From Acuticoccus sediminis (GTDB lineage Bacteria > Pseudomonadota > Alphaproteobacteria > Rhizobiales > Amorphaceae), in contig NZ_QHHQ01000006.1 of assembly GCF_003258595.1 (NCBI RefSeq), positions 310,001 through 374,000 of the forward strand: a stretch of 64,000 nt of DNA. Direction: 5' to 3'. This document shows positions 57,217 through 64,000 of this stretch, one piece after another (the stretch's first letter is position 1; each line of letters begins with the position of its first letter). Made by a program: the position numbers and the translations under genes. Below the pieces are notes generated by a model that worked only from the letters and a program-made list of their open reading frames with translations, had not been told where the DNA came from and did not search any database.

Positions 57217-57410
57217 TCCAGCGCCCGGCAGCCTCCGCCGCGCCACCCCGCGGCAGGGGCGGCGCCGGGACCCCCGCCACCTGACGCACGGCTCCAGGCG
57301 AGCCACGCGCAAGCTTGCGATGCCACATCAGCCAGCGTTGCCACAGCATGCTGGTCGGGTGTCCGCAATTCCGCCGATCCCCCAGCGACATAGAAGCGGG
57401 GGACATGACC

Positions 57411-59342
57411 ATGGCGCTCGTCAACTCCGAGGAGGCCGCCGTCCGGAGCGACGGCGCCGGCCTTCCGCCGGCCCCGACCGTGGGCCTGTTCGAGCGCATC
57501 GCGCATCCCGGCCGGTCACGCCGCCTCCTCATCCAGCACCGCCAGACCGCCGCCGAGCGCATCACCGCCGCGTCGGCGCACATCGCCGGGGAGTTCGCCG
57601 GGACTCTCGCCGCCGTCGAGGCGCAGCAGGCCACGCTGAAGACCGTCGCCGACGGCGAGGCGCAGGCGAGAAGCGCCGCCGAGGCGTCGAAGCGCGCACT
57701 CCAGCGGTTCGACGACAGGACCACGGCGGCGCGCGACGCCGCGGACCTGATGGCCGCCAAGCTCAGCACGCTCGAGGAGCTCAACGAATCCATCCGCGGG
57801 CAGATCGAGGCTTCGCTCGCCGCCGTCGCCAGCGCCGCCAAGCGTCACGCCGACGCCATCCGCGAGGGGACGGCGCTGCAGGGCGAGGCCGGCGAGATCC
57901 GCCAGCTCGTCGACCTCGTCGCCGAGATCGCCGGCGAGACGCGCATTCTCTCCCTCAACGCCTCCGTCGAGGCGGCACACGCCGGGAGGGAAGGCCTCGG
58001 CCTCTCCCTCGTCGCCGAGGAGATCCGCACCCTCGCCGACGCTGCCCTCGGCGCCGCAACGAAGGCCGGATCCCAACTGGCCGAGGCGGGCGGGGAGGCC
58101 GCACGGGCCACCGGTCATCTCGCCGCCGCCGTTGAGGCGAGCGACGGCGACGTCGAGCGCGGCCGCGATGTCGTGCAGCGCCTCGGCGCCGCCGGCGCCG
58201 ACATGGCCGAAACGCGGGACGCGACGGACGCCGTTCTCGCGGCGACGTCGAACGACCTGTCCGCCATCGCGCCGCCGCTCAAGGACGTCGACGGGCTAGC
58301 AGCGAGCATCGACGCGCAGTCCGCGGTCTGCCGCCAGACCCTGCGGGAGGCGCAGCATCAGACCGAGGCGGTCGCCCAGTGCTTCAAGGCCGCGCTCGCA
58401 CTGAACGAGTGGTCCGGTGCGCTCATGACCGCGGCGGAGGCGGCCGATACCGCCGGCATCGCCGACCCCGCGAGGGACACCGCGAACGCCGCCGACGCGC
58501 TGCTTGCGGAAATCGACGAGGGCACGCGGGCCGCGGTCACCGTTCTGGACGCGGTGGAGACCGCCGGGCACGCATGCCGCTCCGCGCTGGCCGCCGCGCA
58601 GACGGCCTCGGAAAGCCTCCTCGCGCCACGGCCCGACTCCGGGTCGGCCGCCGAACTGCGCGATCAGCTTGCGGCGGTGGTGGCCGCGCTGCGCGACTGC
58701 GCCCGCGACGCCCGAGGCGTCACCGACGGTCTCGGCCGCGCGCTGGACGACAACGGCAAGGCGCGAGCGCGGCTCGATGCCTTCGAGCAGGCCGTTCAGC
58801 GCGCGGAACGCATCGTCGAGTCCGCGATCGCGATCGCCGGGCAGACCGGCGCGCTCGGCGTCGACGGCTCCCTCGAGGCCGCACGCGGGCCGTCCGCGCG
58901 GGGCTTCATCGGCGTCTGCGCAGAGGTGCGCGACCTCTCCCGGGACACGGTGCTGAGCGCCGAGCGGATCAAGGAGCGCCTGACGGCCGCGCTCGGACGC
59001 TGCGGGCGCGTGGGCGCCGACCTCGACGCGATCGCGAAGACCATCGGCTCGGAGATCGAGATCCAGCGGGCGGTGCTCCGGAGCCTCGACGGCGTCGCCG
59101 ACCACATCGCCTCGCTCCAAGCCGGCGCCGGGCAGATGACGGCCGACCTCGCCGAGAGCGACGCGGCGCTGTGCGAGGCGAGGACCGCCGTCGCCCTGAT
59201 CGCCAACGCCGCGACCGACGCATCCCGCATCATGGAGGAGGCCGGGACCGCGACGCGGGCCAGGGAGCAGGACGCCGCGGTCCTCGCCGCGTCGGCGAAG
59301 ACCATCGCCTTCCTCGCCGACGAGCTCCGCTCGGTCGGCTGA
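57411..59342 (+). CDS. Soluble receptor-like protein with two methyl-accepting-type hairpin tips
   Basis: This is a long helical protein of 643 aa with no membrane segment. A coiled-coil rich in Ala, Glu and Asp runs along most of it. Two segments match the cytosolic hairpin tip of chemoreceptors. The first (residues 170-212) has IAGETRILSLNASVEAA and AEEIRTLADAA. The second (residues 473-510) has IAGQTGALGVDGSLEAA and CAEVRDLSRD. This is one tip more than in usual receptors. No sensor domain is seen. ATG 57411 is better placed than ATG 57405 relative to the GGGGGA site. It lies 427 bp before a CheA-like gene and probably signals to it. Confidence 0.72.
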   Translation: MALVNSEEAAVRSDGAGLPPAPTVGLFERIAHPGRSRRLLIQHRQTAAERITAASAHIAGEFAGTLAAVEAQQATLKTVADGEAQARSAAEASKRALQRFDDRTTAARDAADLMAAKLSTLEELNESIRGQIEASLAAVASAAKRHADAIREGTALQGEAGEIRQLVDLVAEIAGETRILSLNASVEAAHAGREGLGLSLVAEEIRTLADAALGAATKAGSQLAEAGGEAARATGHLAAAVEASDGDVERGRDVVQRLGAAGADMAETRDATDAVLAATSNDLSAIAPPLKDVDGLAASIDAQSAVCRQTLREAQHQTEAVAQCFKAALALNEWSGALMTAAEAADTAGIADPARDTANAADALLAEIDEGTRAAVTVLDAVETAGHACRSALAAAQTASESLLAPRPDSGSAAELRDQLAAVVAALRDCARDARGVTDGLGRALDDNGKARARLDAFEQAVQRAERIVESAIAIAGQTGALGVDGSLEAARGPSARGFIGVCAEVRDLSRDTVLSAERIKERLTAALGRCGRVGADLDAIAKTIGSEIEIQRAVLRSLDGVADHIASLQAGAGQMTADLAESDAALCEARTAVALIANAATDASRIMEEAGTATRAREQDAAVLAASAKTIAFLADELRSVG

Positions 59343-59769: not shown

Positions 59770-62700
59770 ATGACGAACGCGCAACTCGACCAGTTCATCA
59801 CCGACGCCCGTTGCCTCCTCGACGAGTCCTCGGCCTCGCTCAAGGCGCTGGAGCGGGACCCGGACGATGCGAGCCTGATCGCCACGGTCTTCGACGCCGT
59901 TCGCGCCCTGAAGGACGCGTCGGGCCCGCTCGAACTCACCCCGCTGACCGGGCTGATGAACGTGGGCGAGGACCTGCTCGACATGGCCCGTTCGGCAACG
60001 CTCGAGCTGACGCCCGATGCCCTCGATGTCATGACGGCCTCCTTCGAGCAGGTCGGTGGCTGGCTGACCGAACTGGAGGCGACCGGCGCCCTTCCCGGAG
60101 ATGCCGCCGACGTCGCGGCCCCCCGAATCGCGGACCTGCGGGCGATGGTCGAGCGCGCCGCGGCCGGCAGCGACGCCGGTGCCCCGCCGGACGCACCCGC
60201 AGCCGGATCCGGTCCGGACTGGCTCGGCATCTTCTCCGAGGACGACCGCCTGGCCGCCCTGGTGCATGCGCTGGAAACGGGCGCCGCGATCCAGGCCCTG
60301 CGCTACGCGCCGGGCGCCGGGGCCCTCCTCGCCGGCCAGGATCCCCTGAGCCTCGTCGGCAAGGTGCCGGAGCGGCTGGCGACGTCCGTGACCGCGGCGG
60401 CGCCGTGGCCGGCCATCGCCGAGCTCGACCCGCAGCTCTGCAATCTCGTCTTCCAGGTCCTGACGACGGCGGGCGTCGACACGCTGACGACGCTGTTCGA
60501 GAGCGTCTCGGCTGAGGTGGAGGTCGTCGCCGTCGAGCCTCCGGCGCTGATCCGCCCCTCCGGCGACCTCGCCGACAGCGGCGCCTGCGAGCGTTTCGCG
60601 GCCGACGCCTTGGAGCGTCTCGCGGATGCGCCGGAGACCGCGCTGGAGGACCTCCGCGCGGCGACCCAGGCGCTTTTGCTGCGCACTCCGGCGGCGGCGC
60701 GCGAGGCGGCGATGCTGCGCGGTCTCGCCGTCGCGCTCGCGGTCCCGCCGACAGCCCCGGCTTGGCTCGAAGGCCTCGTCCGCGCCATCGGCAACGGCTC
60801 CCCCCGCCACTGGGCCGGCACCGCAGGCGCCCCGTCCGACGCGGCCAAGCTGTACGCCGAAGAAGCACCCTCGCAGGAGGAGGCGCAAGCCGGCAACTCA
60901 TCCCCCGGCGATGACCCTGCCGTGGATGACGACCCGAATGCGGCGACCGGGCCGGAGGTCTCCGCCGACGAGGAGTCGCTGGCCGGGGAGGACGCCGAGG
61001 TCATCGAGACTGCGGACGAGAGCGCCGACGAGGCGATCATCGCCGACGACGCGGCCACGTCCGACCCGGATGACCGCCCGTCGGACGACGACGCCGCGCC
61101 GTCGGAGGCCGCCGCCGACACCGCCGCGGACGGGGCCGCCGCCGTGGCCGAGGGGGCCGAGGATCTGGTGGCGGAGGCCGCCGCGGCATCCGACGAGGCG
61201 GTGCCCGACGACCTCGGGGACGAACCGGAGGGCGGTGCGGTCGAGACCGTCGACGCGGCCGCCGACGAACCCGCGCCGGCGGACACCGTCGCGCACGAGG
61301 AAACTGCGGAGCCGGACGTCGACCGGCCCCGCGAGGATGACGCGCAGGAGGACCCGGCGTCCGAAATCGAGCCCGTCGAACCGCCCGTCGAAGACGATAC
61401 CGTGGCGCAGGACGACACCGGGTCCGACGTGGCTGGCCCCACGGCGGACGAAGGTGATGACGGCACCGCGGACGCGGACGGCGCCGAAGAGTCTGCGGCG
61501 GCGGAAGACGCCCCAATCGCTCCGGTTGTCGAAGAGGTCGGGGAAGGCACGGAGGCGGACGAGGCCGACTTCGGAGGTGATGCTTCGGCCGATGCTGCCG
61601 CCGCCGGCGAGGACGCTGCATCCGAGCCCGTGCTGACGGAATCGGACGTTGAAGCCGATGCTGCCGTCACAGATCCGGATCTGGGTGGTGCCCCTGACGA
61701 CCCCTCGCCGGAGATGCTCGAAACGGCGACGGTCGACACGGCCGAAGTGCCGGCCGACGAAGAGGGGACGGAGGCAGCATCGGGGGACATCGAGGAACCG
61801 GAAACCGCGCCGGACCACGCCGCCGACGCCGAGCCGGAGGCTCACTCGCCCCTTGCCGACGCCGCAACCGGCCTCGACGAGGTTCTCGGGACCGACCCGC
61901 AAGGCGCCGATACGGCGACGCAGGCGGACACCGACGCCGGCGAGGAACCCGCAGAGGCGGAGGACGCGGCGGCCGCCGCCGGTCTCAACGACGAGGACGC
62001 CGATCCCGAGCCCGTTCCGGTCGAAAGTCCCGACGAGAACGCATTGCCGGGCGCCGCAAGCGCGGCTGATCCCTCCGATGGCGCCGAGGAAGACGGCGCC
62101 GCCGCTCCGGCGACCGTTGCGGCGGACATCGACGCCACGCCGGAGCAGCTGGACGATCCCGGCGGCGATCCCTCGGTCGTCGATGCGGATGCCGAACCGC
62201 AGTCCCCTCCGGACCCTGTGCCCGCGCTCGACGACGGGTCCGCCGGCGCCGACACATCCGACAGCGGTGACGCGGAGGAGGCGGAAGGCGAAGACGGGCG
62301 TCCGGATCCGGACGAAGCGGCGACCCTGACCGAACCGGACGCCGACGCCGGCAGCGCGGAAGGAGCCGATACGGGAGCTGACGCCGCGCCCGACTGCGTC
62401 GACGTCGTCCCCGAGGCCGAGGCGGCGTTCGAGGCCGATGCTGACGAGGTGCCGGACGGTGGGGACGCCGAGGCTCCTGCACCTGATCACGAGGCTCTGT
62501 CCCGCGAGGATGCGGCCCTGACCGCCGGCGAACCTGTCGACGGTGCGGCGGTTCCGAGCGACGCGCTGCCTGATGACGGCATCGCCACGGCGGACGCACC
62601 GCGCTCGAACGACGACGAGAGCGACGGCGCGGAGTCGAACGTTCCCCTCGCCGGGACCGGGCAGTCCGACCTTGCCGAGCAGGAAGGGGCGCCTGCTTCG

Positions 62701-64000
62701 CCCGAACCAGCGCGGACGCCGGGGATCGATGTGGCGGACGACGCATCGCCGGATCTCGGCGAGCCCCCGGCCGAAGCCGTCATCGCGGAGGCGCCTCCGC
62801 CCACAGATGACGAGGAACCGTCAGCGGGTTCCACTCCGGATGCCGGTGCGCAGTTTGCCGACGAAGCCGACGCCGCACCGCAGACGTCGGTGGAAGACGG
62901 GGAGCCGTCGACAGAGCCGGAACCGCCGCTGCCGGACGGATCTGCGGCGGACGCGCCGTCGGCTGAGGACGGCGGTGTGGCCGCGCCTCCACCTGCAGGG
63001 AACGATGAGACGTCGCCAGCGCCGGAAATGCAGGCGATGGACGAAGCCGCGCCGGATGCCGACGCGCCGGTCGAGGACGTCAGCGAGGCAGCGCCGGCGT
63101 CCGATGACGACGGGGAAGCGTCCCGGGACCTCGATGTGCCGGAGGCGGAGGATCCGGCCGAGCTACCGGAGGTGACGGACGGCGAGGGCGGCGAGGCGGC
63201 GACGGATGTGGGGGCACCGCGCGACGATGCCGAAGAGCAGGCGGACCTGTTCGGGCGTCCGGGCGGCGAGCAGGGCCCGGACGACGACCCGCCGCCGTTC
63301 GACGGCGCGCTCGACGGAGCAGGCACGTCCGCTCACCCGGACGCCGAGGTGTCGCAGGATGTCGAACTCCCGTTGCCGAGCGTGACGGGCGAGGAGGCGG
63401 ACGGCTGCGACGATGAGGCTGACAGCCCGTCGCGGGATACCGACCTCCAGGCGCCGGACAACGCGGAGGAACGCTGCGGGCGGGCCGACGAAGGGGACCT
63501 GCCGGCACCGGACGCCGAGCCTGACCCGGACGCAGGACAGGAGCCGGATGCAGTGCAGGATCCGGGTGCCGGGCTGAACTCGGACGTTGAGCAGGACCCG
63601 GGCCCTGAGCAGGGCGTGGCCGATGATCCCGAGGCTGATCGGGAGCCCGTCTCCGCGCAGGACGCGGACCTCGGAGAGGAGCCCGCCCCGGCGCAGGAAC
63701 CGGACGCCGTGCGGGAAGCGGACGCTGCGCCGGGATCGGAAACCGTGGAGGAGGCGGACGACGAGGCGTCTGCCCCGGAGCGCGACACGGCCGAAGGGCC
63801 GGCGGCCGAGGCGGCGGAGACCGGCGACGCGGACGCGGGCGCCGAGGTGCCGCCGGAGGTCATCGCGGCGGGGCGTGGGCTCCGGGTCGACCCGGGGCAG
63901 GTGGAGCGGATGATGCAGCTCGCCGGTGAGCTCGTCGTGGCGCGCAACGCGTTGCCGCATCTCGCACGGCGGGTGGGCGACGTGCCCGGCGCACGCGATG
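59770..64000 (+). CDS. Giant CheA-like kinase with degenerate P1 and acidic linker (3' end cut by window)
   Basis: This open frame starts at ATG 59770 (GGAG 8 nt upstream) and runs to the window end without a stop, giving at least 1,410 residues. Residues 1-110 are P1-like, but the phosphorylation motif reads VFDAVRALKDASG, with Arg45 where CheA has its His and Asp49 where it has Gly. Residues 150-345 form a second domain (WPAIAELDPQLCNLVFQ) known from alphaproteobacterial CheA-like proteins. Residues 360-1365 are an acidic, disordered linker. LRVDPGQVERMMQLAGELV at 1371 onwards is the P3 dimerisation helix of CheA. P4 and P5 are outside the window, so kinase activity cannot be judged. Confidence 0.85.
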   Translation, partial: MTNAQLDQFITDARCLLDESSASLKALERDPDDASLIATVFDAVRALKDASGPLELTPLTGLMNVGEDLLDMARSATLELTPDALDVMTASFEQVGGWLTELEATGALPGDAADVAAPRIADLRAMVERAAAGSDAGAPPDAPAAGSGPDWLGIFSEDDRLAALVHALETGAAIQALRYAPGAGALLAGQDPLSLVGKVPERLATSVTAAAPWPAIAELDPQLCNLVFQVLTTAGVDTLTTLFESVSAEVEVVAVEPPALIRPSGDLADSGACERFAADALERLADAPETALEDLRAATQALLLRTPAAAREAAMLRGLAVALAVPPTAPAWLEGLVRAIGNGSPRHWAGTAGAPSDAAKLYAEEAPSQEEAQAGNSSPGDDPAVDDDPNAATGPEVSADEESLAGEDAEVIETADESADEAIIADDAATSDPDDRPSDDDAAPSEAAADTAADGAAAVAEGAEDLVAEAAAASDEAVPDDLGDEPEGGAVETVDAAADEPAPADTVAHEETAEPDVDRPREDDAQEDPASEIEPVEPPVEDDTVAQDDTGSDVAGPTADEGDDGTADADGAEESAAAEDAPIAPVVEEVGEGTEADEADFGGDASADAAAAGEDAASEPVLTESDVEADAAVTDPDLGGAPDDPSPEMLETATVDTAEVPADEEGTEAASGDIEEPETAPDHAADAEPEAHSPLADAATGLDEVLGTDPQGADTATQADTDAGEEPAEAEDAAAAAGLNDEDADPEPVPVESPDENALPGAASAADPSDGAEEDGAAAPATVAADIDATPEQLDDPGGDPSVVDADAEPQSPPDPVPALDDGSAGADTSDSGDAEEAEGEDGRPDPDEAATLTEPDADAGSAEGADTGADAAPDCVDVVPEAEAAFEADADEVPDGGDAEAPAPDHEALSREDAALTAGEPVDGAAVPSDALPDDGIATADAPRSNDDESDGAESNVPLAGTGQSDLAEQEGAPASPEPARTPGIDVADDASPDLGEPPAEAVIAEAPPPTDDEEPSAGSTPDAGAQFADEADAAPQTSVEDGEPSTEPEPPLPDGSAADAPSAEDGGVAAPPPAGNDETSPAPEMQAMDEAAPDADAPVEDVSEAAPASDDDGEASRDLDVPEAEDPAELPEVTDGEGGEAATDVGAPRDDAEEQADLFGRPGGEQGPDDDPPPFDGALDGAGTSAHPDAEVSQDVELPLPSVTGEEADGCDDEADSPSRDTDLQAPDNAEERCGRADEGDLPAPDAEPDPDAGQEPDAVQDPGAGLNSDVEQDPGPEQGVADDPEADREPVSAQDADLGEEPAPAQEPDAVREADAAPGSETVEEADDEASAPERDTAEGPAAEAAETGDADAGAEVPPEVIAAGRGLRVDPGQVERMMQLAGELVVARNALPHLARRVGDVPGARD
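60850..63870 (+). repeat. ~1,000-residue acidic low-complexity coding region
   Basis: Within the CheA-like frame the sequence encodes about 1,000 residues made almost only of Asp, Glu, Ala, Pro, Gly, Thr, Ser and Val. No lysine was found in my reading and only scattered arginines. Loose motifs recur (EPDA, DAD, AEE, PDAV), clearest near the end (QEPDAV, QDPGAG, AQEPDAV). The reading frame is the same on both sides of it, so it is a real linker rather than a frame artefact. Confidence 0.85.

Follow-up and report, generated by a model that had tools for sequence, protein, structure and literature searches.

Can a CheA-like protein still act as a kinase when its P1 domain lacks the His that receives the phosphate, and, if it cannot, what might it be kept for? 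This question is raised by a gene lying near the end of the window, by which we mean the whole stretch of 64,000 nucleotides that was analyzed (G000:C6:310001-374000, from a genome of 7.76 Mb in 44 contigs). Judged from its sequence, the encoded protein very likely does not phosphorylate and, if it works at all, is probably a nonenzymatic scaffold, or else it is a remnant of a dismantled sensory system. The features that bear on this question are as follows.

57405..59342, plus strand: MCP-like gene upstream of the CheA-like gene (Pfam MCPsignal, 75.1 bits, two stretches)
59770..65055 (in-window part 59770..64000), plus strand: CheA-like gene, 1761 aa, with its ATG at 59770, defined by the open frame and Pfam domains
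59776..60105, plus strand: P1 (HPt) domain, residues 3-112, without the His, placed by Pfam, a structure model, and PDB matches
59902-59904, plus strand: codon CGC, giving Arg45 at the phospho-His position according to the phmmer alignment; CAC in the intact orthologue of G006
60217..60537, plus strand: second N-terminal domain ("P2-like"), residues 150-256, conserved in relatives
60820..63879, plus strand: Ala- and Pro-rich linker (residues 350 to 1371), 31% Asp+Glu against 2% Lys+Arg
63880..64000, plus strand: first part of the P3 dimerization domain, residues 1371-1440, which extends past the window to 64089
64090-64638, plus strand: P4, residues 1441-1623, past the window end, with Arg1488, Tyr1492, and Ala1589
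64657-65034, plus strand: P5, residues 1630-1755, past the window end
65037-65330 (L003:9038-9331), plus strand: small ORF of 97 aa directly behind the CheA-like gene, past the window end

The protein thus reads, from its N terminus, as P1, a second N-terminal domain, an acidic linker of about 1020 residues, P3, P4, and P5. Pfam recognized P3 as H-kinase_dim (residues 1371-1434; 37.4 bits against a cut-off of 23), P4 as HATPase_c (residues 1483-1623; 41.9 bits, above its cut-off), and P5 as CheW (residues 1630-1755; 69.5 bits against 23.5), and the two best NCBIfam models were CheA models, both far under their cut-offs. The sequence-only reading had placed a dimerization helix at residue 1371 of the same frame, in agreement with the start found here (1370/1371), and had proposed to look for P4 and P5 beyond position 64000. 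Both are present there, which removes the objection that a CheA relative might lack P4, but this P4 is damaged. The second N-terminal domain (residues 150-256) had no Pfam match, and its single-sequence AlphaFold model, at a pLDDT of 51, was unreliable.

The evidence for a P1 domain comes from profiles, alignments, and structure. The Pfam Hpt model matched residues 16-96 at 17.2 bits in the whole protein and at 20.1 bits in its N-terminal part, under the cut-off of 24.6; in a whole-genome search, the same frame scored 24.5 bits, and 24.8 with its neighbors in the frame. AlphaFold modeled residues 1-125, from the single sequence, as a helical bundle (mean pLDDT, 74), and a Foldseek search of the PDB with this model, as the sequence-only reading had suggested, returned the CheA P1 domains 3kyi, 3kyj, 1tqg, and 2ld6 at ranks 1 to 4 (TM, 0.63 to 0.73; E, 1.8e-3 to 1.0e-2, none reaching 0.001), followed at rank 5 by a designed four-helix bundle. 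A profile of the N-terminal part found 11 matches among PDB sequences, every one a CheA P1 domain or a designed bundle or repeat. With moderate confidence, and resting in part on the model, the P1 fold of CheA appears to be kept in the protein.

This P1 is without its phospho-accepting His. Residues 44-52 read VRALKDASG, and phmmer set Arg45 opposite the His of the HTLKG motif in the CheA P1 chains 1tqg and 2ld6 (E about 1e-8; the synthetic repeat protein 6ff6 stood above them at 8e-10). That His is the one that we take to be the phosphorylated His45 of Thermotoga maritima CheA. There was no His anywhere in residues 1-165, the first one being residue 166, which supports the earlier proposal of a CheA-like protein with an Arg at this site, whose P1 would be unable to take phosphate. 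The change does not stand alone. We called a residue invariant when it was identical in ten intact relatives, that is, nine outgroups and the orthologue in the congener G006 (which therefore has zero changes by construction), and 6 of the 17 invariant P1 residues were changed (E12D, R42D, H45R, T46A, G49D, and H64N).

To see how rare this is, we searched 61 genomes, the window's own and 60 relatives, with a P3-P5 query and read all of the 60 CheA cores recovered from 48 genomes; a search of the genome contigs with the same query gave a single remote locus (L040), which was set aside. The P1 site was readable in 57 cores, the exceptions being L108, L130, and L139 at contig ends, and held a His in 55 of them and an Arg in only two, the window protein and its counterpart in the congener G002, confirming that Arg at this site goes beyond chance. 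The His was also present in all of nine additional members of the N-terminal subfamily (as was the Asn of the P4 N box in 8/8 readable cases), although the profile used to pick them covers P1, which biases this set toward good P1 domains. A class-wide search of 385 genomes added three more members, all with the His; in one of them (G741), the core is in another frame than the N-terminal part. A sequencing or assembly error could in principle have produced the Arg, given that CGC in the window and CAC in G006 are one base apart, but the same CGC stands at the same site in the separate assembly of G002 and many further P1 and P4 changes accompany it in the window gene, leaving this explanation practically no weight.

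The ATP-binding domain is also affected. The N box of the window protein reads RLVRYAVDHGIE, in which relatives carry Asn in place of the Tyr; among the 59 cores with a readable N box (all but L139), 58 had the Asn and solely the window protein had Tyr. In ATPases of this fold, the Asn serves to hold Mg. The key lesions are Tyr1492 in place of the N-box Asn, Arg1488 in place of the N-box His, and Ala1589 in place of the G2-box Gly, and the G2 box (GRGVAMD) and ATP lid (LARGFSA) are altered. In total, 10 of 38 invariant P4 residues were changed (R1450G, L1465I, A1474V, P1485T, H1488R, N1492Y, T1576A, S1584Y, G1589A, and V1593A). The DDGxG motif (DDGGG) and DHG are retained, but this P4 is without a full set of undamaged boxes (N, G1, lid, and G2). 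Loss of the N-box Asn need not end all nucleotide binding.

Might the P4 lesions be tolerated, and the protein phosphorylate the P1 of the genome's main CheA in trans, in a division of labor like that of Rhodobacter sphaeroides CheA3 and CheA4? The retained DDGxG and DHG motifs would fit, as would the presence of one other Hpt domain in the genome, that of the main CheA; R. sphaeroides CheA homologues with missing domains are known, as described in PMC2829493. However, the N-box Asn kept by every other readable core is gone, the G2 Gly and lid are altered, and the G002 protein carries other P4 damage. Moreover, the main CheA, the only other CheA in the genome, is complete by itself, with its own intact P4, and needs no donor. 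We consider this explanation very improbable. The sequence-only reading's option that another HPt protein serves this CheA loses ground as well. Apart from the window protein, Pfam Hpt matched this genome (E <= 0.001) in a single place, the P1 of the main CheA, and with a P4 that has lost the N-box Asn, kinase activity would probably not be regained through a P1 acting in trans.

The subfamily was found in four of the eight genomes of the genus (G000, carrying the window, and G001, G002, and G006), at E 3.3e-88 or better; weaker matches in the genus (E 1e-13 and above) were mainly to the P1 part of other CheA proteins. The G006 orthologue (L038) is intact, keeping the His, the N-box Asn, and the G2 box, with a small ORF and then a response regulator gene behind it. 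The G001 protein keeps the His, and its contig ends within the linker, placing P4 out of reach. The G002 protein has the Arg, D1495V in the N box, and a mostly changed G2 box; 9 of its 38 invariant P4 residues were changed, with positions 1465, 1584, and 1589 affected in the window protein too. G000 and G002 were sisters in a tree of the N-terminal part (88% support), and a split in the core tree separated the two from the rest (69% support). Together with the common Arg, this grouping suggests that the two probably inherited a single His loss, whereas most of the P4 lesions occur in only one of the two proteins.

Linker length follows a different pattern, at about 1020 residues in the window protein, 819 in the G006 orthologue, 57 in G002, and 0 to 177 in nine other relatives. 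With a long linker both in the dead window protein and in the intact G006 orthologue, and a short one in G002, the linker has grown independently of any loss of kinase residues.

We then asked where in the protein the divergence is concentrated, comparing the mean identity to the nine intact outgroups between the window protein and the intact G006 orthologue, with 95% bootstrap intervals of the difference. The window protein was less similar to the outgroups in P1 (34.9 versus 44.2%; interval, -15.8 to -2.9) and P4 (38.9 versus 48.9%; interval, -15.2 to -4.2), whereas the intervals included zero for P2 (32.1 versus 33.9%), P3 (39.6 versus 35.1%), and P5 (39.9 versus 36.2%). For the G002 protein, the P4 interval excluded zero (-10.8 to -1.0), and that for P1 (-10.0 to 0.8) was not significant. 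Invariant residues were changed in 1/5 cases in P2, 1/6 in P3, and 0/8 in P5 of the window protein. The Pfam scores for Hpt, HATPase, dimerization, and CheW (17/42/37/70 bits in the window protein, 41/49/30/69 in G002, and 54/61/21/52 in G006) agree, for the window protein, with a change selective for P1 and P4.

This pattern also bears on the idea that Arg45 locks P1 in one charge state and that P1 remains a regulatory module, docking on either P4 or a response regulator. The retained fold and the Arg common to the window protein and G002 are in its favor, but P1 is among the faster-drifting domains, with over a third of its invariant residues changed, and we hold this explanation to be quite unlikely.

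The window and G002 proteins were 53% identical over residues 1-350 and 45% identical in the core, while 47% and 50%, respectively, of their same-residue four-fold sites differed. A simulation without selection at about that four-fold-site divergence gave about 20% identity. Given the probably shared His loss, this difference suggests, on rough codon arithmetic, that purifying selection continued after the His was lost; the estimate is crude, with synonymous sites near saturation, and fails if the His was lost twice independently. The main CheA proteins of G000 and G002 were 89% identical, and the second system thus evolves several times faster. Comparison of four-fold sites (47 to 50% differing for this CheA, 35% for the main CheA; 60% and 50% expected at saturation) gave no clean separation between an older divergence and faster evolution. 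The flanks of the cluster appear, from the ORFs read, to differ between G000:C6 (L003) and G002:C24 (L037), with main CheA proteins this similar, and horizontal transfer or relocation is possible.

The window cluster consists of the MCP-like gene, the CheA-like gene, and the small ORF. A CheW gene is missing from it, and the three CheW domains found elsewhere in the genome lie with the main CheA on contig 7, whereas a multi-CheW gene is present in the clusters of G001, G002, and G058. There is also no response regulator gene directly behind the CheA-like gene on the same strand; about 1 kb farther on, the opposite strand carries a lone receiver gene within an apparent histidine-kinase operon. 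That convergent minus-strand region just downstream (L003:9366-14810) encodes a substrate-binding-like protein, a Cache/HAMP/PAS histidine kinase, a single receiver domain, and a receiver joined to an adenylate/guanylate cyclase. In G002, the MCP-like gene and a three-domain CheW gene lie upstream of CheA and the small ORF behind it, with no response regulator gene seen there among the ORFs read. A strict coupling of cluster-CheW loss to kinase-residue loss was rejected, as a three-domain CheW gene accompanies the dead CheA of G002, while the assembly of G006, whose CheA is intact, contains no such gene.

The MCP-like neighbor had no strongly hydrophobic segment (top 19-residue hydropathy mean, 1.19). 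This arrangement of two MCP-signal stretches per chain and no strongly hydrophobic segment, in the cluster of this CheA, was seen in four genomes, and the MCP-like loci are 57405-59342 in the window, L037:4205-6250, L077:6417-8342, and L039:13702-15726. Aligned with the partners from G001, G002, and G058, the MCP-signal tips of the window neighbor were diverged, with some tip changes in the G001 and G002 partners too. Several of the changed positions presumably correspond to contacts to CheA/CheW or between receptors in Escherichia coli. A diverged tip fits weakened array formation. The small ORF was found in three of the eight genus genomes (also at L037:10438-10758 and L038:7457-7732), with 92 to 107 aa and 56 to 62% identity, and the two copies scanned had no Pfam match.

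These gene neighborhoods could also reflect decay, in which the genus is losing a second chemosensory system and the CheA-like gene is a nonfunctional leftover whose frame is still open by chance. The patchy subfamily (4/8 congeners), the absence from the window cluster of the multi-CheW gene and of the response regulator seen in G006, and the MCP-like partner, which shares only 32% identity with its G002 counterpart and has a diverged tip, all count for it, and high-GC DNA easily keeps frames open. On the other hand, P2, P3, and P5 are no more diverged than in the intact G006 orthologue, with no invariant residue lost in P5, the identity of the N-terminal part and core to G002 is well over that simulated without selection, and the small downstream ORF is still 56% identical to that of G002. 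We therefore regard decay as rather unlikely, if a serious contender.

The reading that we lean toward, by somewhat more than even chances, is a pseudo-CheA that is unable to phosphorylate and is kept as a dimeric coupling scaffold or a response-regulator binder; among the options of the sequence-only reading, that of a scaffold or nonkinase relative is the best supported. With the P1 His and the P4 residues lost, the protein would neither autophosphorylate nor feed CheY, and any residual function would be carried by the conserved parts, namely, P3 for dimerization, P5 for coupling, and the second N-terminal domain. With the MCP-like neighbor, the CheW of the main system, or both as candidate partners, it might form complexes in which it is a dimeric scaffold or a decoy; alternatively, its output may be the binding of a response regulator, by analogy with DivL. 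The absence of CheW from the cluster, the lack of a response regulator gene directly behind CheA on its strand, the diverged MCP tip, the patchy subfamily, and the fast evolution weigh against this reading and also fit a relict.

How far does the pseudo-CheA depart from known systems? It shares with canonical CheA (the main CheA of the genome, P0002, and the P1 of T. maritima CheA) the order of P1, P3, P4, and P5 and the P1 fold, but differs in lacking the phospho-His and the N-box Asn, in its very long acidic linker, and in its non-Pfam second N-terminal domain. The G006 orthologue is alike in its domain order, its 55% identical N-terminal part, its long linker, and the small downstream ORF, but differs in having intact kinase residues and a response regulator gene following it. 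R. sphaeroides CheA3 and CheA4 work as a pair. They are incomplete CheA homologues without whole domains, and CheA3 has a very long linker of 794 residues, according to PMC2829493; in contrast, the window protein has all domains, with residue changes in P1 and P4. In Caulobacter DivL, Tyr550 replaces the phospho-His and the protein works in vivo without kinase activity, as described in PMC4211667, which makes it an alphaproteobacterial precedent in principle. DivL differs in belonging to the PAS-type histidine kinases and in having its N, G1, F, and G2 boxes preserved, whereas the window protein is a CheA whose ATP site is damaged.

Carried further, the protein may be a selected, fully noncatalytic pseudokinase in which P1 and P4 were freed from constraint while the dimerization, coupling, and second N-terminal domains were kept. 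It would then support arrays as a scaffold or sense a response regulator, making it the chemotaxis equivalent of DivL, seen in mid-transition within one genus (intact in G006, dead in G002 and the window); we give this possibility a little less than an even chance. Among the titles listed in a search of open-licence papers, none describes a CheA that has all its domains but is dead in P1 as well as P4. In the usual view, CheA is the enzyme that chemosensory arrays cannot do without. The intact G006 orthologue and, in the same genus, a CheA that keeps its assembly domains without the phospho-acceptor and the ATP site form a natural before/after pair, which lets one ask whether a structural or sensing role of CheA may be worth keeping without catalysis.
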